Source of the DNA: Nitrospirales bacterium
GTDB lineage: Bacteria > Nitrospirota > Nitrospiria > Nitrospirales > UBA8639
DNA: 64,000 nucleotides
Reading direction: 5' to 3'
Assembly: GCA_021604005.1 (NCBI GenBank)
Contig: BQIV01000001.1
Location: 124,001 to 188,000 of the forward strand
The position numbers and the translations under genes are program-made. Position 1 is the stretch's first letter. Each line of letters starts with the position of its first letter. Below the pieces are notes generated by a model. It was not told the origin of the DNA. It did not search any database and saw only the letters and a program-made list of their open reading frames with translations. This document shows, piece by piece, positions 5,376 to 63,321 of the stretch.

Positions 5376-5630
5376 AAGTAGTCGAGCGGGAAGTTGCATT
5401 CATGGAAGCTTCTCATCCTGCATCAAGCACGTGTTATGCTCGATACAATAATGGAAACCTTCAGCGGCCAGGGTTTTTAGGAGTAGCTCGATTGAGACAT
5501 GGAGATTATCGTTCCTCTATTAATATATATTGTCAAATGGGAAACGACATGTCAGTTTATATAGATTTTTGAAACTTGAATCAGCATGCTTGATCTGCAA
5601 ATTAAATTGAAGCACAGCCTCAGCCGTACG

Positions 5631-5999
5631 ATGAATCAACTATTTGTTTCACAACCAAAAATCGGCGCTATTCTTTTCATCATATTGGCCTTAATAGTCT
5701 GTGGGGTCGGTGGAGCGCACTGCCACATGTCGCTCTCCCAAGCTGAATCACCCCATACTCAATCCACCTCGCATCAGTCTCCATTCACCGAAGATGTAAC
5801 TTGTCCAGACCTCTTAAATAATGCTGGCGAAGCTGGTGAATCAGCCGATGAGATGTTTAAAGTTTTTCCACTTGCAGTTTTGCCTGGGCAGTTCGACGGT
5901 GAAAATGGTTCAATATTCACGTTTCTGAAAATAACTAGCTTTCCGCAACTCACTTCCTACCCACTTCTCTTTCTCTTGTTTTCCGTTTTTCTGAATTGA
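5631..5999 (+). CDS. Small His/Cys membrane protein, copy 1 of a four-member family
   Basis: About 122 residues: an N-terminal hydrophobic helix ending C-G-V-G-G, a hydrophilic H/S/T-rich segment, a conserved C-P-D motif, a variable stretch and a hydrophobic C-terminus Y-P-L-L-F-L-L-F-S-V-F-L-N. The same layout is found at 40688, 60640 and 62134. The frame is open to ATG 5586, but alignment with the relatives and their equal lengths favour ATG 5631. The His and Cys residues could bind metal in the periplasm (inference). It precedes a truncated outer-membrane efflux gene, as copy 2 precedes cusC. I know no described family with this C-terminal signature. Confidence 0.75.
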   Translation: MNQLFVSQPKIGAILFIILALIVCGVGGAHCHMSLSQAESPHTQSTSHQSPFTEDVTCPDLLNNAGEAGESADEMFKVFPLAVLPGQFDGENGSIFTFLKITSFPQLTSYPLLFLLFSVFLN

Positions 6000-40687: not shown

Positions 40688-41059
40688 ATGACTCAAAAAT
40701 TTCACATAACACTAAGAAATTTCGTTCCTATTCTGCTTTTTGCCTTCGTGATATGTGGGGTGGGGGGCATGTATTGTCCAATGCCGGCCTCCGCAACCGA
40801 TGCATCTCACTCTCAACCAACTGCTCACCATTCCTCCTCTTCTTCCCAAACCACCGGAGAGTGCCCAGACTTACTGACCACTTCTGCGGAATCTTTTGAA
40901 AAGGATGATATCTTTGTTGGCGTTCTTTCCGCTGCGACTATTACCTGGTTAGAAGATCTTCCTCACGCGAGTGTTTTACAGTTTCTCGGAAATGATAGGA
41001 CCCCCCAAGCCACCAACTACCCACTTCTTTTTCTTCTCTTCTCTGTTTTTCTGAATTGA
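40688..41059 (+). CDS. Small His/Cys membrane protein, copy 2, leader of cusCBA
   Basis: 123 residues with an N-terminal hydrophobic helix ending C-G-V-G-G-M-Y-C-P-M-P-A-S-A-T-D. The segment S-H-S-Q-P-T-A-H-H-S-S-S-S-S then leads to E-C-P-D, and the C-terminus is Y-P-L-L-F-L-L-F-S-V-F-L-N. It aligns with the products at 5631, 60640 and 62134. The end is identical to that of copy 1. The His cluster and the C-P-M near the membrane could bind Cu(I/II) in the periplasm (inference). It is the first gene before cusC, 94 bases upstream. Confidence 0.8.
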   Translation: MTQKFHITLRNFVPILLFAFVICGVGGMYCPMPASATDASHSQPTAHHSSSSSQTTGECPDLLTTSAESFEKDDIFVGVLSAATITWLEDLPHASVLQFLGNDRTPQATNYPLLFLLFSVFLN

Positions 41060-49163: not shown

Positions 49164-49237
49164 AGAAGAGGGAGTGAGAGAAATATATCGGAAAACAAAC
49201 GTCGATATCTCACAAAATGAAAACTTGGAGGATGAAC

Positions 49238-51115
49238 ATGGACAGTCACAACAACAAAATAACCCGTCGTGCGTTACTGAAACGCGTCGGTACGCTCGGG
49301 CTGACGATGGCCATGGTACGCCTTCTTCCATCCTATGTCTGGGCAAGCGCCGCGACGACAGGGGCGACATCGACATCACAGTTGGACGGAACGGTCATTG
49401 AGTTACTGATTGATGAGACTCCGTTTCGAATTGGGGAGCAAACCGGGATGGCGAAGACCATCAACGGCACGTTGCCGGGTCCTTTGATCCGCCTGCAGGA
49501 AGGCCAAACCATCACCTTCAACGTCATCAATCGTTTGAAGGAAGATACCTCGATTCATTGGCATGGCTTGATTCTTCCGCCAGACATGGATGGCGTGCCC
49601 GGCGTCAGCTTCGCTGGTATCAAACCGGCCTCAACTTTTACCTACCGCTACCCGGTTCGGCAAAGCGGCACCTACTGGTACCACAGCCACTCCGGATCGC
49701 AGGAGCAATTGGGCGTCTACGGGCCAATCATTATCGATCCGATGGAGCCGGAGCCGTTTCAGTACACCCGTGACTATGTGGTAGTGCTCTCGGATTGGAC
49801 CTTCGAGTCGCCGGATGCGGTATTCGCCAATCTCAAAAAATTACCCAGCTACTATAACTTTCAGAAACGTGCTGCCCACGAGTTGTTTACCGACATAGGA
49901 CGAAAGGGTTTGTGGCCCACACTCCAGAATTACTTGATGTGGGACGGGATGCGGATGGACCCGACGGACTTCGCGGACGTTACCGGTTACGCGTATACTT
50001 ATTTGCTGAATGGTTTGTCACCCGCAAGCAACTGGACGGGACGCTTTCGTCCAGGCGACCGGGTTCGTCTGCGCGTCATCAATGCGGGCGCCATGACCTT
50101 CTTCGACGTCCGCCTGCCGGGTCTCCCTATGACGGTGGTACAAGCGGATGGACAAAACGTGCAGCCCGTCGTGGTGGACGAGTTTCGCATCGGACCGGCC
50201 GAAACCTACGATGTAATCGTCAATCCTACCGAGGATCGCGCCTACACTATATTTGCTGAGACGATGGATCGAAGCGGCTACGCACGCGGCACGTTGGCAC
50301 CGCGCACAGATATGAGTGCTCCGCTTCCCGAACGTCGTCCGAGGCCGCTCCGTACCATGGCTGATATGGGCATGAGCATGGAAGGGATGACCATGACCGG
50401 CATGGACATGGGAGGTATGGACAAGAATTCTTCCGATGACGGAATCCCCTCGACCCACCAGCGAATGACCATGCCCGGGAAACAGGAAACACAAGATACA
50501 CGGAACATGAACAAAATGTCAGATATTGCGATGGCTGATCCATATCACTCGACGATTCCTGGCGCCGAACCTGTCAGGCATGGCCCCGACGATCACGGAA
50601 CCGGCAACCAATCCGTAGCGGAGTATTCGTGGAATCAAAGTGGTGAACCCGGGAGAGGACTGGAAGATAGCAATCGACGCGTGTTGGTGTACACCGATTT
50701 GAAAAGCCTTGCCCCCTATCCCGACCAACGGGCGCCACAACGGGAAATCGAACTCCACCTCACAGGCCACATGGAGCGCTATATGTGGTCGTTCGACGGG
50801 AAGAAGTTTTCGGAGGCCAAAGAGCCCATTCGTTTTCGGTATGGCGAGCGTCTGCGCCTGACCTTCGTAAACGACACCATGATGGAGCATCCCTTACATC
50901 TACACGGCATGTGGATGCACCTTGAGAACGGCACGGGTGCCTACCTGCCGCGTAAGCACACGGTGGTCGTCAAGCCGGCGGAACGACTCTCCGTTGCGAT
51001 CACTGCGGACGCGCCAGGACGTTGGGCGTTTCACTGCCATTTGCTCCTTCATATGGAAGCGGGGATGTTCCGGATCGTCGAGGTGACTGACAGGGAAACG
51101 GAGATGCGATCATGA
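49238..51115 (+). CDS. copA: CopA/PcoA-type multicopper oxidase
   Basis: 625 residues from ATG 49238, six bases after ggagg. The N-terminus has a twin-arginine signal (T-R-R-A-L-L-K-R-V-G). Type 2/3 copper ligands are in S-I-H-W-H-G and Y-W-Y-H-S-H-S-G; the type 1 and remaining type 3 ligands in H-P-L-H-L-H-G and H-C-H-L-L-L-H-M-E-A-G-M. A Met-rich segment (about 380-405, M-G-M-S-M-E-G-M-T-M-T-G-M-D-M) binds extra copper. The enzyme oxidises Cu(I) to less toxic Cu(II) in the periplasm. copB overlaps its stop. Confidence 0.95.
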   Translation: MDSHNNKITRRALLKRVGTLGLTMAMVRLLPSYVWASAATTGATSTSQLDGTVIELLIDETPFRIGEQTGMAKTINGTLPGPLIRLQEGQTITFNVINRLKEDTSIHWHGLILPPDMDGVPGVSFAGIKPASTFTYRYPVRQSGTYWYHSHSGSQEQLGVYGPIIIDPMEPEPFQYTRDYVVVLSDWTFESPDAVFANLKKLPSYYNFQKRAAHELFTDIGRKGLWPTLQNYLMWDGMRMDPTDFADVTGYAYTYLLNGLSPASNWTGRFRPGDRVRLRVINAGAMTFFDVRLPGLPMTVVQADGQNVQPVVVDEFRIGPAETYDVIVNPTEDRAYTIFAETMDRSGYARGTLAPRTDMSAPLPERRPRPLRTMADMGMSMEGMTMTGMDMGGMDKNSSDDGIPSTHQRMTMPGKQETQDTRNMNKMSDIAMADPYHSTIPGAEPVRHGPDDHGTGNQSVAEYSWNQSGEPGRGLEDSNRRVLVYTDLKSLAPYPDQRAPQREIELHLTGHMERYMWSFDGKKFSEAKEPIRFRYGERLRLTFVNDTMMEHPLHLHGMWMHLENGTGAYLPRKHTVVVKPAERLSVAITADAPGRWAFHCHLLLHMEAGMFRIVEVTDRETEMRS

Positions 51116-52020
51116 GCGCGCCCATTCGAACCGTTCTTTTGCTGGCCTTGCTAAGTTTCCTGAGCGTGGGACTCGATGCGGTGGTTGCTTCCGCCCAGAC
51201 GATCCCCCTGGCATCGACCTCCTTGGGGATACCTACTCACACGACTCCCACGATGTATGCAGAGATGCAGCCGGGGACACCATCGGGTGCATCCACAGAC
51301 AAGGCAGAAACATTTCCACATGTATCCCCCCCACTTGACTGGCCCAGTCCGGTCGACGATGAGCAGAACCACTTCTTTTTTCTCGCTGACGTCCTTGAAT
51401 ACCGTCCGAAAACAGGCGGGTCAGGAAGTGGCAACGACTACCGATGGGACATCGAAGGCTGGTACGGCGGGGACTACAACCGCCTCTGGTTTAAAAGCGA
51501 GGGGCAGCAGAACAGCGCCTTTAAAGCGGATTACGACGTTGATTCTCAACTACTCTACGGACGTTTCTTTCAACAATATTACGACTTTCAAGTCGGCGGT
51601 CGCCTCGAAACGCAGTCGTTTGAGGATCGTAATGTGACACGGGGGCTGGCGGTGATCGGACTACAAGGACTGGTTCCCTATAACTACGAAGTCGAGTCCG
51701 CTCTTTTCGTGAGTCATCGCGGCCACGTGTCCGCGCGCTTAACGGGGACCAAAGACCTGTTCTTGAGTCAACGACTGATCCTCCAGCTTCGCTTTGAAAC
51801 CAACGCGGCCATACAACGCGTCAAAAAATTCACGACCGGCTCTGGGCTCAACAACGTCGAAGGGGGCGCGCGCCTGCGCTATGAAATTCGACGGGAGTTT
51901 GCCCCCTACGTGGGAGTTTCCCTGGACAGAAGTTTTGGCGAGACCGCGACACTCGTACGGCAGGAGGACGGAGACACGAGTCAGATTCGATTCGTGGTGG
52001 GAGTCCGGCTATGGTTCTAA
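51112..52020 (+). CDS. copB: CopB/PcoB outer-membrane copper resistance protein
   Basis: 302 residues; the start overlaps the copA stop (ATGA). After the signal peptide a short linker leads to the CopB domain: D-V-L-E-Y-R, a repeated alternation of hydrophobic and polar residues as in a 12-strand barrel, and the terminal aromatic residue F after V-G-V-R-L-W. The Met/His-rich N-terminal part typical of CopB is short (M-Y-A-E-M-Q). It may bind copper at the outer membrane. The co-occurrence with copA is characteristic. Confidence 0.93.
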   Translation: MSAPIRTVLLLALLSFLSVGLDAVVASAQTIPLASTSLGIPTHTTPTMYAEMQPGTPSGASTDKAETFPHVSPPLDWPSPVDDEQNHFFFLADVLEYRPKTGGSGSGNDYRWDIEGWYGGDYNRLWFKSEGQQNSAFKADYDVDSQLLYGRFFQQYYDFQVGGRLETQSFEDRNVTRGLAVIGLQGLVPYNYEVESALFVSHRGHVSARLTGTKDLFLSQRLILQLRFETNAAIQRVKKFTTGSGLNNVEGGARLRYEIRREFAPYVGVSLDRSFGETATLVRQEDGDTSQIRFVVGVRLWF

Positions 52021-52984: not shown

Positions 52985-53809
52985 ATGAGACTTTTTAACA
53001 CTCTTCTTGATCGTACAAGGATCTTCAGATCTACAATCGTTTTGTTCATGCTTTTAGGTGTCACGCCACTTTTACCGGTATATAGTCAAAACACAACTAG
53101 TACCCAACAACATCATAAAAATCGGGATGCCGATCCTTCGATGACGATTAGTCAACAATTGGTAGACTTGCGGGGTACGATTGCCCGTCTGGAAGCCGTG
53201 TTGGAGCAAGATCACCGAGGATCGGTGCCTCTGGTGAAAACTCAGATGGGCATGGGCCCAATGGGGTGTGGAGAAGGAGGATGTGGCCCAGCCGGCTCGC
53301 GTATGAAAACTGGAAAAATGAGCAGCATGAAAAAAGGCGACAGGGGCATGATGGGGAAGATGGGGAAGATGGGGAAGATGGGAAAAGGCAGAATGCAGAG
53401 GAGAGCGATGTCCCGGTCAGCGCTTCCTGGCTTTCCTGGTGCCTCTCATCTCTATCACATTGGCGAAACCGACTTTTTCCTTGATCACCAGGAACACGTT
53501 ACTCTCGCGCCGCAGCAGGAGTTGACCATCAACCAAATCAAAGAACATGCCCTGCTCACTCAGGCGAACTTTGATCGTCAGGTTGAGCAAGCCGAGCAAG
53601 AGCTGTGGGTCTTGACCAGTTCAGATGAACCTGAAACCCAGCAAATCGAGGCAAAAGTCCGGCAAATCGAAAAATTGAAGGGTGATCAACGACTCGCCTT
53701 TATACGCGCCGTGGGTGAGGCTGCGAAAGTGTTAACTGAGCAGCAACGGAAATTTTTGACTGGAACAGGACCTCCACAATCGAAATTACAAGAGCCCGAA
53801 CAGAAATAA
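52985..53809 (+). CDS. Exported helical protein, Spy/CpxP-like, with Met/Lys-rich repeat
   Basis: 274 residues with a signal peptide (cleavage near V-Y-S-Q-N) after ribosome site aggagg. The central segment (about 80-140) is rich in Met, Gly, Lys and Cys (M-G-P-M-G-C-G-E-G-G-C and repeated G-K-M). The C-terminal half forms long charged helices with L-T-I-N-Q-I-K-E-H-A and L-T-E-Q-Q-R-K-F-L, similar to the L-T-x-x-Q helices of Spy/CpxP periplasmic chaperones. The Met/Cys segment suggests copper binding. The call is by pattern, not by close homology. Confidence 0.72.
   Translation: MRLFNTLLDRTRIFRSTIVLFMLLGVTPLLPVYSQNTTSTQQHHKNRDADPSMTISQQLVDLRGTIARLEAVLEQDHRGSVPLVKTQMGMGPMGCGEGGCGPAGSRMKTGKMSSMKKGDRGMMGKMGKMGKMGKGRMQRRAMSRSALPGFPGASHLYHIGETDFFLDHQEHVTLAPQQELTINQIKEHALLTQANFDRQVEQAEQELWVLTSSDEPETQQIEAKVRQIEKLKGDQRLAFIRAVGEAAKVLTEQQRKFLTGTGPPQSKLQEPEQK
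53351..53386 (+). repeat. Nine-base tandem repeat inside the Spy/CpxP-like gene
   Basis: Three identical units atggggaag followed by a diverged unit atgggaaaa, coding for repeated M-G-K. Because the unit is nine bases, copy changes keep the frame and would lengthen or shorten the Met/Lys segment. Confidence 0.8.
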
Positions 53810-53839
53810 TGTTACGAAACCATGAAAGGAGCACGTACC

Positions 53840-54178
53840 ATGCTTAGTTCACGACAAATCTTTCTAGTTGTACTTGTCTGTTTGACTGTGGGGTCTTCTT
53901 CGTTGAGCTTCGGAGAAAACAAGTCGCACTCCACAGGCCAGGTGTCGCCAGAGTTGCGGAAGGACATGGCAGATATGTACCAGAAGATGGCGGACTGTTT
54001 GAGAACCGACAAGTCTCTTTCTCTTCAAGAATGTCAGCGCAAGGTCGCGAACGATTGTCCTGTGATCGCAAAGACCGGACAATGTCCAATTCTTGAGGGC
54101 ATGGGGCTGATGCGAGGTTCTCGTGGAATGCATCAAGAGGGAATGGGATCCATGCGAGGACCTCATAAAATGCGCTAG
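53840..54178 (+). CDS. Small exported Cys/Met protein of copper cluster
   Basis: 112 residues from ATG 53840, about 10 bases after ggag; an upstream ATG at 53822 is less likely. A signal peptide ends near S-F-G-E-N. Four Cys lie at A-D-C-L, Q-E-C-Q, D-C-P-V and Q-C-P-I, and the tail is rich in Gly, Met, Arg and His (R-G-M-H-Q-E-G-M-G-S-M-R-G). No family is recognised. Metal binding in the periplasm is a reasonable inference. Confidence 0.7.
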   Translation: MLSSRQIFLVVLVCLTVGSSSLSFGENKSHSTGQVSPELRKDMADMYQKMADCLRTDKSLSLQECQRKVANDCPVIAKTGQCPILEGMGLMRGSRGMHQEGMGSMRGPHKMR

Positions 54179-54376: not shown

Positions 54377-56443
54377 ATGACAGACGGCTCTTTCCAAAGA
54401 ACTCCTGCCAGATGGTTTCTCGGGGTGGCCGTCATGACCGTGTGGCTTCTGGTATTGACTGACCCGGGTTACTCCCAAATCTCGCCTAAGGAACATGCCA
54501 GCCATCATCCAAATCAAGGCAACAGCTCAAGCGGAGTAGCAGGCGGGCAAAGACAAGAGGGCGGTCCCGGTAGCCTGGGCGGCGGTCCTCCTGGAGGGAA
54601 GGGCGGAAGCCCAGGTGGCATGATGGGGGGCGACATGGACAAAATGATGGAGAAAATGGGTGCGCCCAAACCCAAAGCCCTATACCCCACCCTCATGAGT
54701 CTTCCTGATTTGCCGTTTGAACAACGTGCCGAGGTACAACAGCAGGCGCATGAACGCATGAAGCAAGGAACAGCCCTGATGGCGGAGGGGCTGAAATCTT
54801 TATCCCAGTCGGCCCCCACAAACGATTTTTTAGCCATGCAAGAGGCCACGAGGAAGTTGCATGAGGGGCTGTCCCAATTCGAAAGTGGTCTGGCGGCCCA
54901 TCGCGCATTGGCAGAAGGCACGTTACCGCGCAATGTCGCCCTGCAATGGTTCAAGCAGGAAATGAACCTGCTTCCTCCAAGGGAGGGCAAGCAGGCCCAT
55001 GGGATTTTTGGACTGTCATGGTTTCATTTCTCTGTGATGCTGCTCCTTATCGGGTTTGCCGTGACTATGTTATTTCTCTACTTTTTCAAAATACGCCGCG
55101 CGGCCGCGCTACTCAATCGGCTTGCTGAAGATGCCGGCCCGGTGAATTCTCCACAAGCCGCTGCTCCTGAGAAACCAGCTGTCACTGCCGCCGTAGAAGG
55201 GAAACCATCGGACGGAGAAGGTTCACCATCAAATTCCCCAGCAACATCCGCCCGTCCGCCCACGTCACAAGAGGTGAAAAGTCCGGCAACGGCTTCTGCC
55301 GAATGCTGCGATGACTCATCGGACGTGTGTGCAACCGAGGAGCACGGCTCAACGGATCGACCCGATCTCTCGAAGGGACTCTTACCTATCGCCAAGAAGA
55401 AACTCTGCAGACTTCGAGTTTCCCAAATCTATCAGGAGACCCAGGATGTCAAGACTTTCCGACTCGTATCGTGTCATGGAGGTGGCATCCCTTTCAGTTA
55501 TTTGCCTGGTCAATTTCTTACGCTAACTATGCCGATCGGCGACAAGCCGATTCGGCGGAGCTATACGATTTCATCTTCCCCGACCCAAGGATACTACTGC
55601 GAGATCACCGTGAAGCGGGAAGAACAAGGCGCTGGATCCCGCTACCTGCACGATGTCGTCAAAGTCGGCGATACCCTTGAGGTTCAGGCCCCGAGCGGGA
55701 AATTTGTCTTTACCGGGACCGAGGCGGATAGCATCGTGCTCATCTCTGGTGGCGTGGGCATCACTCCGATGATGAGTATCACACGTGCATTGACTGACAT
55801 GGGCTGGAATGGTGATATCTATTTCATCGCGGCATACCGTGATCTTGATCACTTTATCTTTGAATCTGAATTGAAACGACTTCAAGCACGTCATCCAAAC
55901 TTACATGTTTTTATTGCCATGAGCAATCTGGAAAAGGACACCGATGGCTACCATCGCGGGCGGATTACCAAGGATTTACTTGCGCAGTGGGTACTCGACC
56001 TTGCGTCGAAGTGGATTCACCTTTGTGGCCCCATACCGATGATGGATGCTGTCAAGCAGATGCTGACCGAGTTAGGAGTACCTGGGGAGAAAATTCACAC
56101 CGAAAACTTTGGCTCACAGCAGAAACCACAGGCCAGGGCTGTAGAACGCGAGAAGACACTAAAAGCGACGCCGGTCGAGAAGGCTGGGACAGTCACGTTT
56201 CAGACATCGGGCAAATCGACGGAACTCCTGCCCGACGAAACCGTGCTGGAGGCGTCGGAACGAGTCGACGTTAATATCGACTATTCCTGTCGGACCGGCT
56301 CGTGCGGAGTGTGCAAGGTCAAACTTTTGTCAGGATCAGTGACCATGGAAGTCGAGGACGGCCTGGATCCGGACGAGAAAGTCGCGGGGATGATTCTGGC
56401 TTGTCAGGCCAAATCCACCGGAAACGTTACGGTCGATGTTTAG
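54377..56443 (+). CDS. Membrane-anchored flavoprotein with 2Fe-2S domain and periplasmic Met-rich domain
   Basis: 688 residues. An N-terminal export signal is followed by a Gly/Met-rich stretch (about 60-95, M-M-G-G-D-M-D-K-M-M-E-K-M) and a helical domain to about residue 210. One membrane helix follows (about 217-239), then a Ser/Pro linker. The rest is a ferredoxin-NADP-reductase-type module with R-R-S-Y-T-I-S-S (FAD), G-G-V-G-I-T-P-M-M-S and L-C-G-P-I-P-M (NAD(P)H), and a C-terminal ferredoxin C-R-T-G-S-C-G-V-C with a fourth Cys near the end. It should pass electrons from NAD(P)H to a partner, probably the membrane protein 15 bases downstream. Confidence 0.88.
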   Translation: MTDGSFQRTPARWFLGVAVMTVWLLVLTDPGYSQISPKEHASHHPNQGNSSSGVAGGQRQEGGPGSLGGGPPGGKGGSPGGMMGGDMDKMMEKMGAPKPKALYPTLMSLPDLPFEQRAEVQQQAHERMKQGTALMAEGLKSLSQSAPTNDFLAMQEATRKLHEGLSQFESGLAAHRALAEGTLPRNVALQWFKQEMNLLPPREGKQAHGIFGLSWFHFSVMLLLIGFAVTMLFLYFFKIRRAAALLNRLAEDAGPVNSPQAAAPEKPAVTAAVEGKPSDGEGSPSNSPATSARPPTSQEVKSPATASAECCDDSSDVCATEEHGSTDRPDLSKGLLPIAKKKLCRLRVSQIYQETQDVKTFRLVSCHGGGIPFSYLPGQFLTLTMPIGDKPIRRSYTISSSPTQGYYCEITVKREEQGAGSRYLHDVVKVGDTLEVQAPSGKFVFTGTEADSIVLISGGVGITPMMSITRALTDMGWNGDIYFIAAYRDLDHFIFESELKRLQARHPNLHVFIAMSNLEKDTDGYHRGRITKDLLAQWVLDLASKWIHLCGPIPMMDAVKQMLTELGVPGEKIHTENFGSQQKPQARAVEREKTLKATPVEKAGTVTFQTSGKSTELLPDETVLEASERVDVNIDYSCRTGSCGVCKVKLLSGSVTMEVEDGLDPDEKVAGMILACQAKSTGNVTVDV

Positions 56444-56458
56444 AGAAGTTGAAAACTC

Positions 56459-57223
56459 ATGAAGGAACGTGAAGCAGTAATCATTACCGGTCTAGTGCTT
56501 TTTCTTTCCCTTTTCTGGCTCGGCTTTCTTGTCCACCGATCGCCACGTTTTGCCGGGAGTTTGTGGGGAGGGGTGCTGGGCGTCAGCGGGGCGATGCTGA
56601 TGCTTGTTCCCCTGGCATATCTGGTCGTCAAACGAGTGAAATCGCTCAAACAGGCAGTGACTCGACGTGTGTCGATGCGCACGCTGCTCGCAGGGCATAT
56701 CTATGCCGGTGTTTTAGGACCGATCTTAGTATTAGTCCATACAGGGCATAAGTTTGAAAGTCCATTGGGTATTGCCTTAACCAGCATGACAATCATCGTC
56801 GTGTTGAGTGGATTCATCGGTCGCTACCTCATGGGTCGGATCTCTCAAGAAATTAAAGAAAAACGATCCATTCTTGATGGGCTAAACTCCTCATACCAGG
56901 AAACGCTCGAACGGCTGCGAACCTGCTGCGCGGCTAAATCGGTCCAACTTCAACCCTTTACCGGCTTTTTTTCGCGACTGTTGGGAAGACCTTTTTTCAG
57001 CATGCAGGAACAAGAGATGGATACGATGTCTATCGGTCTCCGTGCAGTTCGGCTTTCTGATGCGATTGCGGACCTGGAATACGCGATCAGGACGCACGAC
57101 ACCATCAAACACGTGTTTTCCTTGTGGCTGAAGATTCACATCACCTTATCCATGGTGCTGTATGCGCTTCTCGCCCTCCATGTTTGGGCAGCCGTTCACT
57201 TTGGATTGCGATGGTTTTCATGA
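56459..57223 (+). CDS. Membrane protein, probable b-type cytochrome subunit
   Basis: 254 residues, about five hydrophobic helices with a cytoplasmic charged segment between helices 4 and 5 (about 120-215). Two helices carry paired His: L-A-G-H-I-Y-A...V-H-T-G-H-K-F, and K-I-H-I-T-L...L-H-V-W-A-A-V-H. This pattern suits two b haems stacked across the membrane. The family is not firmly recognised. Between a cytoplasmic flavoprotein and periplasmic multihaem cytochromes it would carry electrons across the membrane (inference). Confidence 0.65.
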   Translation: MKEREAVIITGLVLFLSLFWLGFLVHRSPRFAGSLWGGVLGVSGAMLMLVPLAYLVVKRVKSLKQAVTRRVSMRTLLAGHIYAGVLGPILVLVHTGHKFESPLGIALTSMTIIVVLSGFIGRYLMGRISQEIKEKRSILDGLNSSYQETLERLRTCCAAKSVQLQPFTGFFSRLLGRPFFSMQEQEMDTMSIGLRAVRLSDAIADLEYAIRTHDTIKHVFSLWLKIHITLSMVLYALLALHVWAAVHFGLRWFS

Positions 57224-57243
57224 TGAAGATCGGGTAGTGATCT

Positions 57244-58044
57244 ATGGGTAAGTTTCGAATCGTGGCATTAACGCTCCTTACGATCTTAGGGGGATTGGGC
57301 CTTGTCTATTCCAGCGTTGGATCTCCGATGGCTGCGAACACCTGGCAGCGATTGGTCAATCCAGGCGAATTATCCGTCGTTCATGCTTCTCTAGAACAGA
57401 ACTGTGCAGCCTGCCATACCGCGGTCATGGGCGTCGAGGCGACAAAGTGCATTCTCTGTCATGCCAATGAAGAATCTCTCTTACAGCGTCAGCCGACGGC
57501 CTTTCACGCCGACGTCCAGGAATGTCGATCTTGCCATCTCGAACATCAAGGGCACGTTCGAAATCCGACGAATATGGATCACCTGGCTCTGGCCACGATC
57601 GGCTTGTTCACCCTTCCGAGTGACGAAGATTCTCTTGGCATGGCAGGGGGGGTGCGCTGGAATCTAATGAACTGGCTCGAGCATTCAGATAGTCTACTCG
57701 CTTCACCCCTTACCAACCGTCACATTGCACCAAAAGAAGCCATTTTGAACTGTGCGATTTGTCACAAAAACGATGATCGACATTTTGATCTCTTTGGCCA
57801 GGATTGCGCTCTGTGCCATGCCACACGGGCTTGGACTCTTCCAGAATTCCAACACCCTCCCGATGACTCAATGGATTGCGCCCACTGCCACCAAGCACCG
57901 CCCAGCCATTATATGATGCATTTCACCATGATTTCACAAAGGGTGGCTGGGCAACCACGGGCCCGAGTGGATCAGTGTTTTCTATGCCATCAGACGACCT
58001 CATGGCCGGATATAAAAAGGGCGGGGATGTATAAACATCATTAA
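57244..58044 (+). CDS. Membrane-anchored heptahaem cytochrome c
   Basis: 266 residues with an N-terminal anchor (about 8-30). Seven CxxCH haem motifs are seen: C-A-A-C-H, C-I-L-C-H, C-R-S-C-H, C-A-I-C-H, C-A-L-C-H, C-A-H-C-H and C-F-L-C-H. Extra His residues are available as sixth ligands. The arrangement resembles cytochrome c3/c7-type or nitrate-reductase-associated chains and ends with Y-K-H-H. It would accept electrons from the membrane protein upstream and pass them to, or from, the octahaem protein. A gap of about 180 bases precedes the HAO gene. Confidence 0.85.
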   Translation: MGKFRIVALTLLTILGGLGLVYSSVGSPMAANTWQRLVNPGELSVVHASLEQNCAACHTAVMGVEATKCILCHANEESLLQRQPTAFHADVQECRSCHLEHQGHVRNPTNMDHLALATIGLFTLPSDEDSLGMAGGVRWNLMNWLEHSDSLLASPLTNRHIAPKEAILNCAICHKNDDRHFDLFGQDCALCHATRAWTLPEFQHPPDDSMDCAHCHQAPPSHYMMHFTMISQRVAGQPRARVDQCFLCHQTTSWPDIKRAGMYKHH

Positions 58045-58224
58045 AGAGATGGACGTAAAGGAGATGAGGAGAAAGTTTTTGTGCATGAGATTCGTCCAAG
58101 ATGAACAACATGTGTATGGCAAGAAAAGACCGACACAAAATTGCTGCACGAATGCAGGTTCCTGAAGCCGAGTATCGAAAAAATAGGTGCAACTAACACG
58201 TAACACACTTGCAAGGAGACGGCT

Positions 58225-59730
58225 ATGAAAATCCTGAAACACGGCTGTTGGAAGAGAGCGTTCCTCCCAATATCGCTAGGTACGGCGCTCGTGGTGCTGG
58301 CTGGGGTCGTGCCGGTGATCTTGGACGTCGATAATGGGGAAGCTGCTCGCCCGGCTGGAGTGTACGGAAAGGATTGGGGAGATCCAAAAGGTGAAGAATG
58401 CGTCCTTTGTCATCGCAAGCATACACCCGGGCTTAATGAAGAATGGAATAAGAGTATGCACGGTCAAAGAGGCGTGAATTGCCTGGATTGTCACAAAGCC
58501 GATGGAAAGGATAAAGATAGCTTCCGGCACAAGGGACAATTGATCTCGGTTATCGTTACCCCAAAGGATTGTGCCCGCTGTCATACCAAGGAATTCGAGG
58601 AGATGGATGGCTCCCACCACTCCAAAGGAGGTCAGATTCTGGCATCATTGGATAACCTGCTAGGCGAAGTCGTCGGCGGTCCGGCTGCGGTGAACGCGGG
58701 ATGTAAGCAGTGTCATGGTTCGGTCATTGAGATCGGTGAAAACGGGAAACCTCTTCCGACCACTTGGCCAAATACCGGCATTGGTCGGATTAACCCAGAC
58801 GGATCCCTGGGTTCCTGTACCGCCTGTCATGGGCGACACCGGTTTTCTAAAGCTCAAGCCCGGACGCCTGATACCTGTGGGAAGTGTCACGTAGGTCCGG
58901 ATCACCCTCAGATTGAAGTCTACAATGAATCCAAGCATGGAATCCTTTACCACGCCAAGGTTGGTGAGATGAACCTCGAGTCTGATAAATGGGAAGCTGG
59001 CGTAGACTATTCGGCCGCCCCCACTTGCGCTACATGTCATATGAGTGCCGGAGGTGGAGAAACATCCACGCATAATGTCGGCGAGCGAATCTCGTGGACT
59101 CTGCGTCCGCCGATCTCTGTAAAGAACAACCTTGTGAAGTTGAAGAACGGAGATGAATTCGATGTCCCGGAAGGCAAGCCATTACCGAAGGTCGGCTCAA
59201 AGGCAAAAGGCTCCAAAGTGACCGAGGTACTCACCTGGAAAGAACGCCGTCTTAAAATGCAGAACGTCTGTACTGCCTGCCACACGGATTCCGTCATTCT
59301 TGGGCATTACAACCAGTTCGATAAGGTCGTCGATCTGTACAACGAGAAATTCGCCAAACCCATTGCGGCAGTCATGAGTGATTTGAAGAAGTCAGGAAAG
59401 ATTACCAAAAGTCCATTCGACGAAAAGATCGAGTGGATTTGGTGGGAGATCTGGCATCATGAGGGTCGTCGAGCTCGACATGGTGCTTCCATGAATGGCC
59501 CAGACTATACCTGGTGGCATGGGATTTATGAAGTTGCCAAGCACACGTATTTCGAGTTCATCCCAGAATTGGAGAAAGTTGCGGGTAAAAAAGACGCAAA
59601 GGAGTTGCTCGACAAGCACTTTAAACCTATTGCAGGTCACAGCTGGTACTTTGAAGGGATGAATCCCGCCCAACTTGAGGCAGTTCGAAAAGGCTTTGAA
59701 GCCCGCTACGGGAAAGGTTCCTTGAAATAA
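58225..59730 (+). CDS. hao: Octahaem hydroxylamine-oxidoreductase-family cytochrome
   Basis: 501 residues, signal peptide to about residue 42 and a good ribosome site. Eight CxxCH motifs: C-V-L-C-H, C-L-D-C-H, C-A-R-C-H, C-K-Q-C-H, C-T-A-C-H, C-G-K-C-H, C-A-T-C-H and C-T-A-C-H. The C-terminal helices contain G-P-D-Y-T-W-W-H-G, in which Tyr428 is a candidate for the cross-link to the catalytic haem of oxidising HAO; alignment is needed. Family members oxidise hydroxylamine or hydrazine, or reduce nitrite. No haoB is present, and a NapC-type gene follows, which fits either direction. Confidence 0.9.
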   Translation: MKILKHGCWKRAFLPISLGTALVVLAGVVPVILDVDNGEAARPAGVYGKDWGDPKGEECVLCHRKHTPGLNEEWNKSMHGQRGVNCLDCHKADGKDKDSFRHKGQLISVIVTPKDCARCHTKEFEEMDGSHHSKGGQILASLDNLLGEVVGGPAAVNAGCKQCHGSVIEIGENGKPLPTTWPNTGIGRINPDGSLGSCTACHGRHRFSKAQARTPDTCGKCHVGPDHPQIEVYNESKHGILYHAKVGEMNLESDKWEAGVDYSAAPTCATCHMSAGGGETSTHNVGERISWTLRPPISVKNNLVKLKNGDEFDVPEGKPLPKVGSKAKGSKVTEVLTWKERRLKMQNVCTACHTDSVILGHYNQFDKVVDLYNEKFAKPIAAVMSDLKKSGKITKSPFDEKIEWIWWEIWHHEGRRARHGASMNGPDYTWWHGIYEVAKHTYFEFIPELEKVAGKKDAKELLDKHFKPIAGHSWYFEGMNPAQLEAVRKGFEARYGKGSLK

Positions 59731-59769
59731 ATACCTTCGAGACTTGGAAATTCGCTTCGAGTTATCGAC

Positions 59770-60366
59770 ATGATACTGAAAGTATGGAAATGGTTTTGGA
59801 GTACAACCAGCAAGTATACCTGGGGAGCCATCTTCGTCGTAGGCGGGATCGCGGGGGTTATCTTTTGGGGTGGATTCAATACCGCCATTGAGTTATCGAA
59901 TTCGCTCTATTTTTGTGGCAACGTCTGCCATGAAATGAATGACTACGTCATTCCGGAATATCAGAAATCCATTCACTACCAGAACGCAGCGGGTGTGCGC
60001 GCAATCTGCTCAGATTGTCATGTCCCCAAAGAATGGGGACCGAAGGTAATCCGGAAGATTAAGGCTACCGGCGAGCTTTGGGGCAAAATTACCGGTTCCA
60101 TCAACACGAGGGAAAAATTCGAGGCCAAGCGTGAAAAACTCGCCATGCTCGTGTGGCTCGAAATGAAGGAAAACGATTCCCAGGAATGCAGGAACTGCCA
60201 TTCGTATGAGGCGATGGATTGGCACGCCCAGTCGCTTGTTGCGCAGCGTGATATGCGAAAAGCCATGAAGGAAGGTAAGACCTGCATCGACTGTCATAAG
60301 GGGATCGCTCATAAGCTACCCGAAGGCTATGACGAGGACACGCCAATTTATGACGATGACTTGTAG
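59770..60366 (+). CDS. NapC/NirT-family tetrahaem quinol dehydrogenase
   Basis: 198 residues with one N-terminal membrane helix (about 15-40) and four haem sites: C-G-N-V-C-H, C-S-D-C-H, C-R-N-C-H and C-I-D-C-H. The first is CX3CH instead of CX2CH, although it is followed by the family sequence C-H-E-M-N-D-Y-V-I-P-E-Y. Relatives (NrfH, NapC, cM552/CycB) exchange electrons between the quinol pool and periplasmic cytochromes. It lies 39 bases after the HAO gene and is its likely membrane partner. Confidence 0.88.
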   Translation: MILKVWKWFWSTTSKYTWGAIFVVGGIAGVIFWGGFNTAIELSNSLYFCGNVCHEMNDYVIPEYQKSIHYQNAAGVRAICSDCHVPKEWGPKVIRKIKATGELWGKITGSINTREKFEAKREKLAMLVWLEMKENDSQECRNCHSYEAMDWHAQSLVAQRDMRKAMKEGKTCIDCHKGIAHKLPEGYDEDTPIYDDDL

Positions 60367-60639
60367 GAATGCTAAGGCCGTCTGCCATGTGTGCGTTGAC
60401 GGCGGGTCAATTCGGAACAAACCTTGGTAGGGGCTAACAATGCATATGTAGAAATTTGCGGCACACAGCATTTTCCAAATGGGGAAGGAAGCCACATGTC
60501 TGAATGTTATGTAAGTCAATCATTATCTTTAACATACTGATCTCTTTTCATTTTGTGGTGGCATTTTTTTTGCTTAACCAATTGACATTCTGATTATCAT
60601 CTTCCTCCTCTTATTAAAGTAACCAAACAAGAAATTCCA

Positions 60640-61005
60640 ATGAATCCTCATACGAGACAGGTTAAATTACTCCTTACCTACCTATTACTCTTTACCTTTT
60701 CGGTATGCGGGTTGGGAGGCTTGTTTTGCGCAATGCCAGCCTCCGCAACCGACGCACACCATTCTCAATCAACTTCTCACCATCCATCCTCCCAAGATGG
60801 GGAGTGTCCGGATCAGTTCAAAAACGCTAAAAAGCAGTCCGAGCGATTCTCCGTTGTCCTCGTTCAAGTTGAAAATCTGGAAAACCTCGGAATGGGGATT
60901 GACTCATTCCAATCTCGTATCTCTAAACATTTTTTCAAAGAGGGCACGATCATTCCCTCTACCTATCCTCCTCCGTTCCTTCTCTTCTCCGTTCTTCTAA
61001 ACTAA
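60640..61005 (+). CDS. Small His/Cys membrane protein, copy 3, before ECF sigma
   Basis: 121 residues: N-terminal helix ending C-G-L-G-G-L-F-C-A-M-P-A-S-A-T-D, then H-H-S-Q-S-T-S-H-H-P-S-S, E-C-P-D, and a C-terminus S-T-Y-P-P-P-F-L-L-F-S-V-L-L-N. It is closest to copy 4 (62134). It precedes an ECF sigma gene by about 190 bases rather than an efflux gene. Membership of the family argues for a shared role in metal response, for example as a sensor or anti-sigma partner. This is untested. Confidence 0.78.
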   Translation: MNPHTRQVKLLLTYLLLFTFSVCGLGGLFCAMPASATDAHHSQSTSHHPSSQDGECPDQFKNAKKQSERFSVVLVQVENLENLGMGIDSFQSRISKHFFKEGTIIPSTYPPPFLLFSVLLN

Positions 61006-61194
61006 GCCCCCTTACAACCTAAGTGTCTAAAAGGTCAGAAACCTTTTGTGTTTCTGCGTTCATAACTACGGCATGAACGGGTTTGAAGTTCCATCAGAGG
61101 AAGGAGTTCCTGACAGACAAACAGAGCGAATTATCATTAATGGGAATTGAACCATAAGGAATGCGACCACTCTACGGAATAACGGTCACAAAAG

Positions 61195-61815
61195 ATGGAT
61201 CTCAGGATGACTAGCAATAAAATGACATCAAAATTCTCAACACGTTCAGGCCCCTCAAAATTGGAACCAATTGTAAGGACGGCTCTTGTTCAGAATCGCA
61301 AAAAATTCCTGCAATTTCTCAACCTGCGGGTAGGAAACATGGACATTGCTGAAGAAATACTTCAGCAATTTTGCATGAGAGCCCTCAATAAGGGAGGCGC
61401 TCTCAAAAATCCTGAGAGTGTGGTGGCTTGGTTGTATCGTGTGCTGAACAGCACGTTGACAGACTTTTTTCGTCGTGAAGCAAAGAGACATAAAGAGGAG
61501 GGCGAATTTGCCCGTCTGGAACTCAAGCAGGTTCAAGAATTGGACATAAACCCTGTAACAGTCTGTGCGTGCATCTATGAGCTCATTCCGACTCTCAAAG
61601 CTGAGTATTCAGAAATTTTTCAACGAATTGATCTTAGGGGGGAATCACATGCAAAGGTCGCGAGTGATCTGAGAATCACCGGCAATCTTGTGCGAGTTCG
61701 GTTACATCGGGCTCGACGGGCACTCAAGGAAGCCTTACTGATGTCTTGTTGTAAAACCTGCCATGAGCACGGCTTTATGCATTGCGAATGTACGCACGGG
61801 GCAAAAGACCATTGA
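61195..61815 (+). CDS. ECF sigma factor with C-terminal Cys-rich tail, copy 1
   Basis: 206 residues. Sigma region 2 (A-E-E-I-L-Q-Q-F-C-M-R-A and V-V-A-W-L-Y-R-V) and region 4 (I-D-L-R-G-E-S-H-A-K-V-A...N-L-V-R-V-R-L-H-R-A-R-R-A-L) are clear. The tail reads S-C-C-K-T-C-H-E-H-G-F-M-H-C-E-C. In CorE-like sigma factors such Cys-rich tails sense metals directly, without an anti-sigma factor. A Cys pair also lies in the linker (V-C-A-C). The relative at 62599 has the same layout. Target promoters are not known; the copper genes of the window are candidates. Confidence 0.9.
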   Translation: MDLRMTSNKMTSKFSTRSGPSKLEPIVRTALVQNRKKFLQFLNLRVGNMDIAEEILQQFCMRALNKGGALKNPESVVAWLYRVLNSTLTDFFRREAKRHKEEGEFARLELKQVQELDINPVTVCACIYELIPTLKAEYSEIFQRIDLRGESHAKVASDLRITGNLVRVRLHRARRALKEALLMSCCKTCHEHGFMHCECTHGAKDH

Positions 61816-62133
61816 GCCTGGATTCAATCACCGGTGAGGCGGTGAGGCATTTCCCGTCATTCCTATGATTGGTTTTTCTGAAAAGGAGTTGGAAGCCTTC
61901 TGTATGGCACAAGGGAGTAACATTGATGTATGGCCCAACAGATAAAGTCAGGTGCTTGCGTAGGCTGAGGGCAGGAACATTTGAAGGCGGGATTAGGGTT
62001 TGTGCATCTGTTCATAAACAAGGATTCTATCGTGAAGCAGGGAGGAAGCTGATGAAGAACCTCCATAAACCTTGGTCAGTGGAGTTCGTATTCCGAAAAT
62101 ACTCAAGATTTTTCACCGGTGCATAAAATTTCC
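61816..62133. other. Duplicated intergenic block with a copy of the manC 5' end
   Basis: The stretch 62000-62079 resembles 63341-63420, which includes the ribosome site and first codons of the mannose-1-phosphate guanylyltransferase gene (ATG 62052 corresponds to ATG 63394, offset 1342). The copy reads M-K-N-L-H-K-P-W and then loses homology, so no enzyme is encoded here. An open frame at 61869-62126 passes through this block but has no other support. Confidence 0.7.
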
Positions 62134-62499
62134 ATGAATCCTCCAACGGTACAGAATAAATTAGTTCTTACTTATTTTTTACTCTTCACCTTTTTGGTCT
62201 GCGGGGTGGAGGGCTTATTTTGCCCAATGCCAGCCTCCGCAACCGACACACACCACTCTCAACCAGCATCTCACCATTCGTCATCCCAAACTGGTGAGTG
62301 TCCGGATCAGCTCAAAAACTCTGAAAAAGAGTCTAAGCGATTACCCGTTGCCCTTCTTCAGGTTGAAAAGCTGGAAAACCTCGGAAGTTGGCTCGACCTG
62401 TTCCTATCTTGTATCACTAAACGATATTTCAAAGAGAGCACGCTCACACCTTCCTCCTATCCTCTTCTGTTCCTTCGCTTCTCTGTGCTTCTAAATTGA
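62134..62499 (+). CDS. Small His/Cys membrane protein, copy 4, before ECF sigma
   Basis: 121 residues from ATG 62134, chosen by alignment with copy 3 (both start M-N-P); a GTG at 62119 is in frame. Helix ends C-G-V-E-G-L-F-C-P-M-P-A-S-A-T-D, then H-H-S-Q-P-A-S-H-H-S-S-S, E-C-P-D, and a C-terminus S-Y-P-L-L-F-L-R-F-S-V-L-L-N. It lies 99 bases before the second ECF sigma gene. With copy 3 it forms a tandem duplicated two-gene cassette. Confidence 0.78.
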   Translation: MNPPTVQNKLVLTYFLLFTFLVCGVEGLFCPMPASATDTHHSQPASHHSSSQTGECPDQLKNSEKESKRLPVALLQVEKLENLGSWLDLFLSCITKRYFKESTLTPSSYPLLFLRFSVLLN

Positions 62500-62598
62500 G
62501 TTCCTTCACCGTTTAGGTATCTCAGAATCCAGAAGCACGATTTCTTTCTGGGTTCATAGCAGCGGTGTATTTATTTATTCAATTTTAGGGGGCAGGAC

Positions 62599-63321
62599 AT
62601 GAGAACAAACTCATACGAAGGTTTACCCAGAGAAGAATTGTGCCGAGTGCGGCATACCATGAACGGAACATCGATTATCGATAGCGGATTGAAAGAAAGA
62701 AAGGCCCTTGTGGAAGCGGCACTGATTCAGAATCGCAAACAGTTTCTGTCTTTTCTCCACCGACGGGCAGGGAGCTTGGATTTTGTCGAAGACATCTTTC
62801 AGCAATTCTGTCTTCGTGCCCTCACCAATAGCGCAACCCTAAGAAATCCAGAAAGGGTCGTCGCGTGGCTCTATCGGATTCTCCATAGCACGTTGGCCGA
62901 TTTTTTTCGAAGTGAAAACCGACGGCAACGTGACGAGTCAGCATACACCCAATATCAGACCGAACAGGGTGGTACCAAGGAGAATGATCCAGAGAAAATT
63001 TGCGCCTGTTTTATAAAGGTTTTGCCTACGCTCCAGCCCCGGTATTTTCGCATGCTGGAGCGAATCGATCTGCGTGGAGAATCACGCGAAGAAGTCGCAA
63101 GGGATTTGGGCGTTACGAGCAACCTCGTACGAGTGCGTTTGCATCGGGCGCGGCGGGCTCTTAAGGATGCACTCCTGGACTCATGCCAGGCTTGCTGTCA
63201 TGAACAGAGATTCATGGACTGCGATTGTGTTGGAGGAGAAGAGGTGCACGGCATCAGTCGAAATCACAGCAACTGTAATGCGGTGAGATCTTTAACGTCT
63301 TATAAGAGGAGGACAGGATGA
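62599..63321 (+). CDS. ECF sigma factor with C-terminal Cys-rich tail, copy 2
   Basis: 240 residues after ribosome site aggggg. Region 2 (D-I-F-Q-Q-F-C-L-R-A-L, V-V-A-W-L-Y-R-I) and region 4 (I-D-L-R-G-E-S-R-E-E-V-A, N-L-V-R-V-R-L-H-R-A-R-R-A-L) are well conserved with the copy at 61195. The tail, D-S-C-Q-A-C-C-H-E-Q-R-F-M-D-C-D-C, has the metal-sensing pattern, followed by a Ser/Asn/Arg-rich end not found in copy 1. Differences in the tail may give another metal preference. Confidence 0.9.
   Translation: MRTNSYEGLPREELCRVRHTMNGTSIIDSGLKERKALVEAALIQNRKQFLSFLHRRAGSLDFVEDIFQQFCLRALTNSATLRNPERVVAWLYRILHSTLADFFRSENRRQRDESAYTQYQTEQGGTKENDPEKICACFIKVLPTLQPRYFRMLERIDLRGESREEVARDLGVTSNLVRVRLHRARRALKDALLDSCQACCHEQRFMDCDCVGGEEVHGISRNHSNCNAVRSLTSYKRRTG

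Follow-up and report, generated by a model that had tools for sequence, protein, structure and literature searches.

The question raised by this locus is whether five adjacent genes encoding electron-transfer proteins belong to one pathway. The window, that is, the whole stretch of 64,000 nucleotides that was analysed (positions 124,001 to 188,000 of contig BQIV01000001.1, assembly GCA_021604005.1), comes from the genome of a Nitrospirales bacterium (4.7 Mb in 92 contigs), which, judging from its sequences, most likely belongs to lineage IV of the order; its family, UBA8639, corresponds to lineage IVa (PMC12342949). An earlier note, made from the DNA alone, had read the genes between positions 54377 and 60366 as a possible single system carrying electrons from NAD(P)H across the membrane to an HAO-family protein. 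The analysis presented here suggests that they probably represent two independent modules lying side by side: genes 1-3 (the trio, 54377-58044), which would form the electron conduit of a copper island, and genes 4-5 (the ONR-NapC pair, 58225-60366), which may act as a nitrite reductase. All five open reading frames (ORFs) were found on the + strand, and their coordinates, domains and haem motif counts agree with the descriptions in that note:

54377..56443, + strand: trio gene 1, membrane flavoprotein of 688 amino acids, assigned by its Pfam domains
56459..57223, + strand: trio gene 2, protein of 254 amino acids with five transmembrane segments, a probable di-haem b protein (the b-like protein)
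57244..58044, + strand: trio gene 3, heptahaem c3/c7-like cytochrome with an N-terminal signal or anchor
58225..59730, + strand: gene 4, HAO-family octahaem cytochrome (ONR), a probable nitrite/hydroxylamine reductase, assigned by domain, PDB and profile matches and by comparison with PMC12342949
59770..60366, + strand: gene 5, NapC/NirT-type tetrahaem quinol dehydrogenase (PF03264), partner of ONR

Conservation of the gene order

When 84,980 species genomes were searched with a profile of the b-like protein, 308 relatives were obtained, the best 80 of which were taken with flanking DNA for the trio locus counts. The flavoprotein gene adjoins the b-like gene in all 80 loci and the c-type gene does so in 79, the product of the latter having exactly seven CXXCH motifs in 78 of these 79 homologues, as it has in the window. 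Conservation of the five-gene order had been set beforehand as the test that could refute a single system, and the three upstream genes proved not to be co-conserved with hao-napC: neither hao nor napC stands beside the trio in any of the 80 loci, the closest relatives included. The idea of a conserved five-gene cluster, examined by protein searches in the family, the order and the phylum, was rejected; the complete order was found in this genome only.

The same separation is seen among 48 genomes sampled from the family. The octahaem protein is present in six of them and the b-like protein (>80% identity) also in six, while both occur together in two, a co-occurrence that is not significant (p = 0.16). 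The b-like protein has matches at 84-90% identity in Nitrospirales bacteria NPIRA01 and NPIRA04 and in Nitrospiraceae bacterium UBA8639, which assign the genome to the Nitrospirales. Three genomes (G005, G012 and G032, loci L016, L017 and L018) carry the HAO-NapC pair with no trio beside it, and in a fourth (G064), which has the pair, the b-like protein is without a close match. Three others (G003, G066 and G004) have the trio in the same copper island as the window, followed by an HD-GYP gene, and in G062 both modules are present, the trio being followed by a different gene. Comparison of the DNA with four close relatives places the boundaries exactly, as homology runs to position 58044 and starts again at 60632-60633, the flanks being otherwise syntenic and hao-napC lying precisely in between:

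58045..60631, no strand assigned: block that holds hao and napC and replaces the HD-GYP gene of close relatives

An HD domain was found in the gene that stands in place of this block in the relatives. The separate distribution of the two modules and the exact replacement of one block by another indicate that the five genes came to lie next to each other in this lineage specifically.

Proteins of the trio

Domains FAD_binding_6, NAD_binding_1 and NAD_binding_6 were detected above the cut-off in the product of gene 1, and Fer2 is also present, with C638, C643, C646 and C676 as the 2Fe-2S cysteines. The protein is laid out as a signal or transmembrane segment, a periplasmic Met/His-rich arm with a helical hairpin, a second transmembrane segment and the FAD/NAD(P)H/2Fe-2S module. 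The linker between the two hydrophobic segments is Met-rich, methionine making up 14.2% of the arm against 3.4% of the remaining protein. Basic residues follow the second hydrophobic segment, suggesting that the FAD module is located in the cytoplasm. Two motifs were recognised in the periplasmic part:

54494..54508, + strand: HASHH motif of gene 1 (H40, H43, H44), periplasmic, kept as HxxHH in 74 of 79 homologues
54635..54658, + strand: MDKMMEKM motif (MxxMMxxM) in the arm of gene 1, a possible Cu(I) site, found in 61 of 79 homologues

In the product of gene 2, five hydrophobic segments and two H-X13-H pairs (H80/H94 and H227/H241) were recognised, and all of the 63 sequences compared keep six of its histidines (26, 80, 94, 97, 227 and 241). 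In an AlphaFold2 model (pLDDT 85), H80 and H94 lie in the third transmembrane helix (73-94), and H227 and H241 in the fifth and last (192-253). In ferric reductases and NADPH oxidases, two b haems are bound by paired-His helices of this kind, and gene 2 probably encodes a carrier of two bis-His b haems. Some Planctomycetota and Hydrogenedentota and one metagenome-assembled genome of Nitrospinaceae encode a b-like protein much longer than 254 amino acids; in one such locus (L133, 10001-11635) the C-terminal extension is a DUF547 domain. A PDB sequence search with the heptahaem product of gene 3 gave no significant match. The trio keeps its motifs in different phyla, and they are therefore not due to chance.

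These features bear out the suggestion of a transmembrane route from NAD(P)H through the flavoprotein and the b-like protein. The trio would thus resemble a ferric reductase or NADPH oxidase split into separate proteins: the cytoplasmic FAD/2Fe-2S module would oxidise NAD(P)H, the electrons would move over an inner haem b (H80/H227) and then an outer one (H94/H241), and they would leave for the periplasm through the heptahaem cytochrome. An outside-positive membrane potential favours electron flow in the outward direction. We infer this direction, the haem b content and the cofactor preference of the flavoprotein from the predicted proteins. The electrons may serve to reduce Cu(II), so that Met-rich chaperones and Cu(I) exporters are supplied with Cu(I), or they may feed a copper-stress enzyme.

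Copper context and mobility of the trio

As had been noticed earlier, the cluster follows copper genes. The surroundings of the five genes in the window are a metal-resistance region, which includes, besides copA and copB as the context of the trio, RND efflux genes recognised by reading the ORFs:

49217..51115, + strand: copA, copper-resistance multicopper oxidase (TIGR01480, 808 bits, above the cut-off), syntenic in relatives
51112..52020, + strand: copB, copper resistance protein B (PF05275, E 9e-70)
52985..53809, + strand: Met-rich periplasmic protein with weak Metal_resist similarity (match below the cut-off), a recurrent upstream neighbour of the trio; its Variovorax homologue matches Metal_resist above the cut-off
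53822..54178, + strand: small secreted protein that adjoins the trio in Nitrospirales; its homologue immediately precedes the trio in L042-L045, L101, L102, L104 and L105

Copper markers (the multicopper oxidase CopA, CopB, a copper P-type ATPase, a four-helix copper-binding protein or DUF411) were counted within 10 kb of the 45 trio loci that had full flanks. They were found at 31 of these and in none of 40 evenly spaced control stretches of 20 kb, a contrast to be read with the reservation that all the controls came from Nitrospirales genomes while most trio loci belong to other phyla. A gene for a Met-rich, Metal_resist-like or Spy-like periplasmic protein occurs near 60 of the 80 trio loci. 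Since the trio is located in a copper island in most genomes, periplasmic copper chemistry is its likely end use, and the genome context together with the Met/His motifs makes copper the best guess for the electron acceptor.

Among the best 80 loci the trio is found in Planctomycetota, Proteobacteria, Verrucomicrobiota and others. Annotated plasmids of Methylophaga, Spirosoma, Variovorax, Sphingobium, Acetobacter and Bradyrhizobium carry it in copper islands, and plasmid searches with the b-like protein and with the heptahaem protein each gave hits at 56 places in 52 records, the organism counts also agreeing. In a plasmid of Methylophaga pinxianii (L110:14751-20756), cytochrome c maturation (ccm) genes are located shortly after the trio. 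The Nitrospirota sequences occupy three separate places in the tree, which indicates that the cassette moves between lineages. A more far-reaching proposal, which is put forward tentatively and is less likely than not, is that the trio is a horizontally mobile, NAD(P)H-driven periplasmic Cu(II) reductase of copper resistance, with a Met-rich arm and a heptahaem exit, which occurs in nine or more phyla and on many plasmids. No description of the trio, or of any copper-linked heptahaem/flavoprotein system, was found in the open-access literature, and this widespread three-gene electron wire has apparently not been described so far.

The ONR-NapC pair

The product of gene 4 contains eight CXXCH motifs, matches Multi-haem_cyto with 94 bits and matches the octahaem cytochrome 4qo5 with an E-value of 1e-47. 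The best PDB matches of its profile are 4qo5 and the Kuenenia-type HAO-like protein 6h5l; we take the former to be the Ignicoccus hospitalis octahaem cytochrome and both to be of the reductive type. The product of gene 5 matches Cytochrom_NNT (231 bits) and has four haem motifs. Its first haem site (59914-59931) has the unusual form CX3CH (CGNVCH), which is CANACH or CGNACH in four relatives, while L005 keeps CXXCH. The napC gene starts 39 bp downstream of the octahaem gene, and this order is kept in 5 of 5 family relatives, with petBC in none of the flanks, so that the coupling of HAO with a NapC-type partner pointed out in the earlier note holds. In Nitrospiraceae, a relative of the octahaem protein, about 45% identical, follows the Rieske/cytochrome b (petBC) genes, often with ammonium transporters nearby. 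Most ONRs of Nitrospirales are associated with petBC and a quarter, all of lineage IV, with NapC; a role in nitrite reduction for assimilation was proposed, and expression in the absence of ammonium was reported for the ONR-family enzyme of Nitrospiraceae (PMC12342949).

The reductive use considered in the earlier note is supported, the protein looking more like a reductive HAO than an oxidative one. Among solved structures it is closest to 4qo5, its distal pocket retains the DH, and the segment of the cross-link tyrosine, which reads TYTVGW in canonical HAOs of the same order, reads DYTWWHG here. Reductive HAOs are without the cross-link tyrosine of the oxidative ones (PMC12758564), and this comparison counts as support and not as proof, since the alignment is weak in that region. 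In the preferred explanation, quinol would be the electron source of NapC, and nitrite (or hydroxylamine) would be reduced by the octahaem protein, probably to ammonium.

As for other enzymes of this kind, the search for an NrfA-type protein gave 20.3 bits for Cytochrom_C552 in the window, against a cut-off of 24.1, and nothing above the cut-off elsewhere in the genome. A NirA-like protein, just under its own cut-off, is encoded in the genome, and NirA and ONR are thus not strictly exclusive in it. No relatives of the HAO protein were found in viral contigs.

Alternative explanations

Several observations, in addition to the origin of the copper controls, weigh against the explanation by a copper-island conduit and a separate nitrite reductase. 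No copper marker was found at 10 of the 45 trio loci with full flanks, mostly those of Planctomycetota. In Alteromonas and Glaciecola (L114:9974-18588 and L204:7213-15840) the trio lies directly upstream of a NiFe-hydrogenase operon, separated from it by the gene of a conserved 407-amino-acid protein of no known family. No Pfam family, that of the ferric reductases included, matches gene 2 above the cut-off. Its fold matches to SpNOX (Z 8.4) and cytochrome b561 (Z 8.4-8.8 overall) stand amid unrelated helical proteins and give a weak hint, and fold searches with gene 2 and with the periplasmic arm of gene 1 gave no match at E < 0.001. Finally, the place equivalent to Tyr467 of Nitrosomonas, where no tyrosine is visible by eye in the window protein, lies in a region that is poorly aligned, and the profile-profile alignment stopped short of the C-terminal region. 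The Tyr number was obtained by counting along the 4fas alignment.

The hydrogenase neighbour suggests that the partner of the trio may vary. The trio might accordingly be a general outward or reversible conduit whose partner is set by the island that carries it: copper in most cases, hydrogenase in Alteromonas and perhaps nitrite reductase here. The hydrogenase operons, the Planctomycetota loci without copper markers and the mobility of the cassette, seen in the three tree places of Nitrospirota, are consistent with this idea, which nevertheless seems unlikely, as copper is the strongly enriched context and the Alteromonas cassette itself is also located near copC-copD. Moreover, the Alteromonas Orf1 and Cyt proteins, cloned as flanking genes, were dispensable for maximal hydrogenase activity in Escherichia coli (PMC3102683), a result of activity assays that does not address the physiological electron route.

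A single five-gene system, in which the trio, alongside NapC, would supply the HAO-family enzyme with electrons taken from NAD(P)H, is less likely still. The trio and ONR are adjacent on the same strand, the gap of 180 bp between them contains no + strand site resembling a terminator, and the hydrogenase neighbour in Alteromonas and Glaciecola makes an exchange of partners conceivable; yet the order is confined to this genome, the two modules are distributed separately in relatives, G062 included, and NapC already supplies a quinol route. A functional link between the trio and the nitrite reductase in this particular genome is possible, and conservation lends it no support.

Oxidation of hydroxylamine by the HAO-family protein, with electrons going via NapC to quinone, is very improbable in spite of the family membership and the canonical HAOs in relatives of the same order, given the relationship to 4qo5, the DYTWWHG segment, the petBC association, frequent ammonium transporters and expression without ammonium of the Nitrospiraceae family members, and a genome search that gave no AMO match, though none was obtained in control genomes either.

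Other features of the region

Downstream of the block, a unit consisting of a gene for a small secreted His-rich peptide and an ECF sigma factor gene is repeated (60640-61815 and 62119-63321), one copy (60640-62080) having the look of a local duplicate. The small His-rich peptide is encoded again elsewhere in the window, at 5586-5999 and 40688-41059.

Comparison with known systems

The usual explanations of copper resistance in the periplasm are export, binding and oxidation of the CueO/CopA type. If the proposal made here is true, an NAD(P)H-fed reductive wire that accompanies copper genes in many phyla would supply the redox arm that this picture lacks, and proteins annotated as 'hypothetical', '2Fe-2S binding' or 'cytochrome c3' would gain a testable role. 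At this locus, reliance on adjacency would have produced an erroneous nitrogen pathway of five genes.

A mechanistic parallel to the trio is offered by NOX and ferric reductases, for example SpNOX (8qq7), which likewise have two membrane helices, each with a His pair 13-14 residues apart, a cytoplasmic NAD(P)H-FAD module and outward electron flow, the topology of the trio being a predicted one. The trio differs from these enzymes in being split into separate proteins, in its additional 2Fe-2S domain, periplasmic arm and heptahaem c exit, and in having no Pfam match for the membrane domain. By position and annotation, orf1 and cyt of the HynSL region of Alteromonas macleodii correspond to trio genes 2 and 3; in the part of PMC3102683 that deals with them they figure as hydrogenase-flanking genes, with no mention of the flavoprotein upstream. 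In other Nitrospirota (L106, L107 and L109), distant relatives of genes 2 and 3 are also adjacent, the b-like gene lying directly upstream of a c-type cytochrome with 24-27 haems; unlike the trio, these pairs have far more haems, and neither a flavoprotein nor a copper context was seen at these loci.

The octahaem enzyme resembles 4qo5 and 6h5l in its haem number, and differs from them in that these are archaeal or anammox proteins with other partners. It is most closely comparable with the ONR-NapC pairs published for lineage IV (PMC12342949): the window has an octahaem HAO-family protein with an adjacent NapC, most likely in the same lineage. It is therefore an additional case, in a nitrifier lineage, of a pair already published, with no substantive difference except the copper-island cassette next door.

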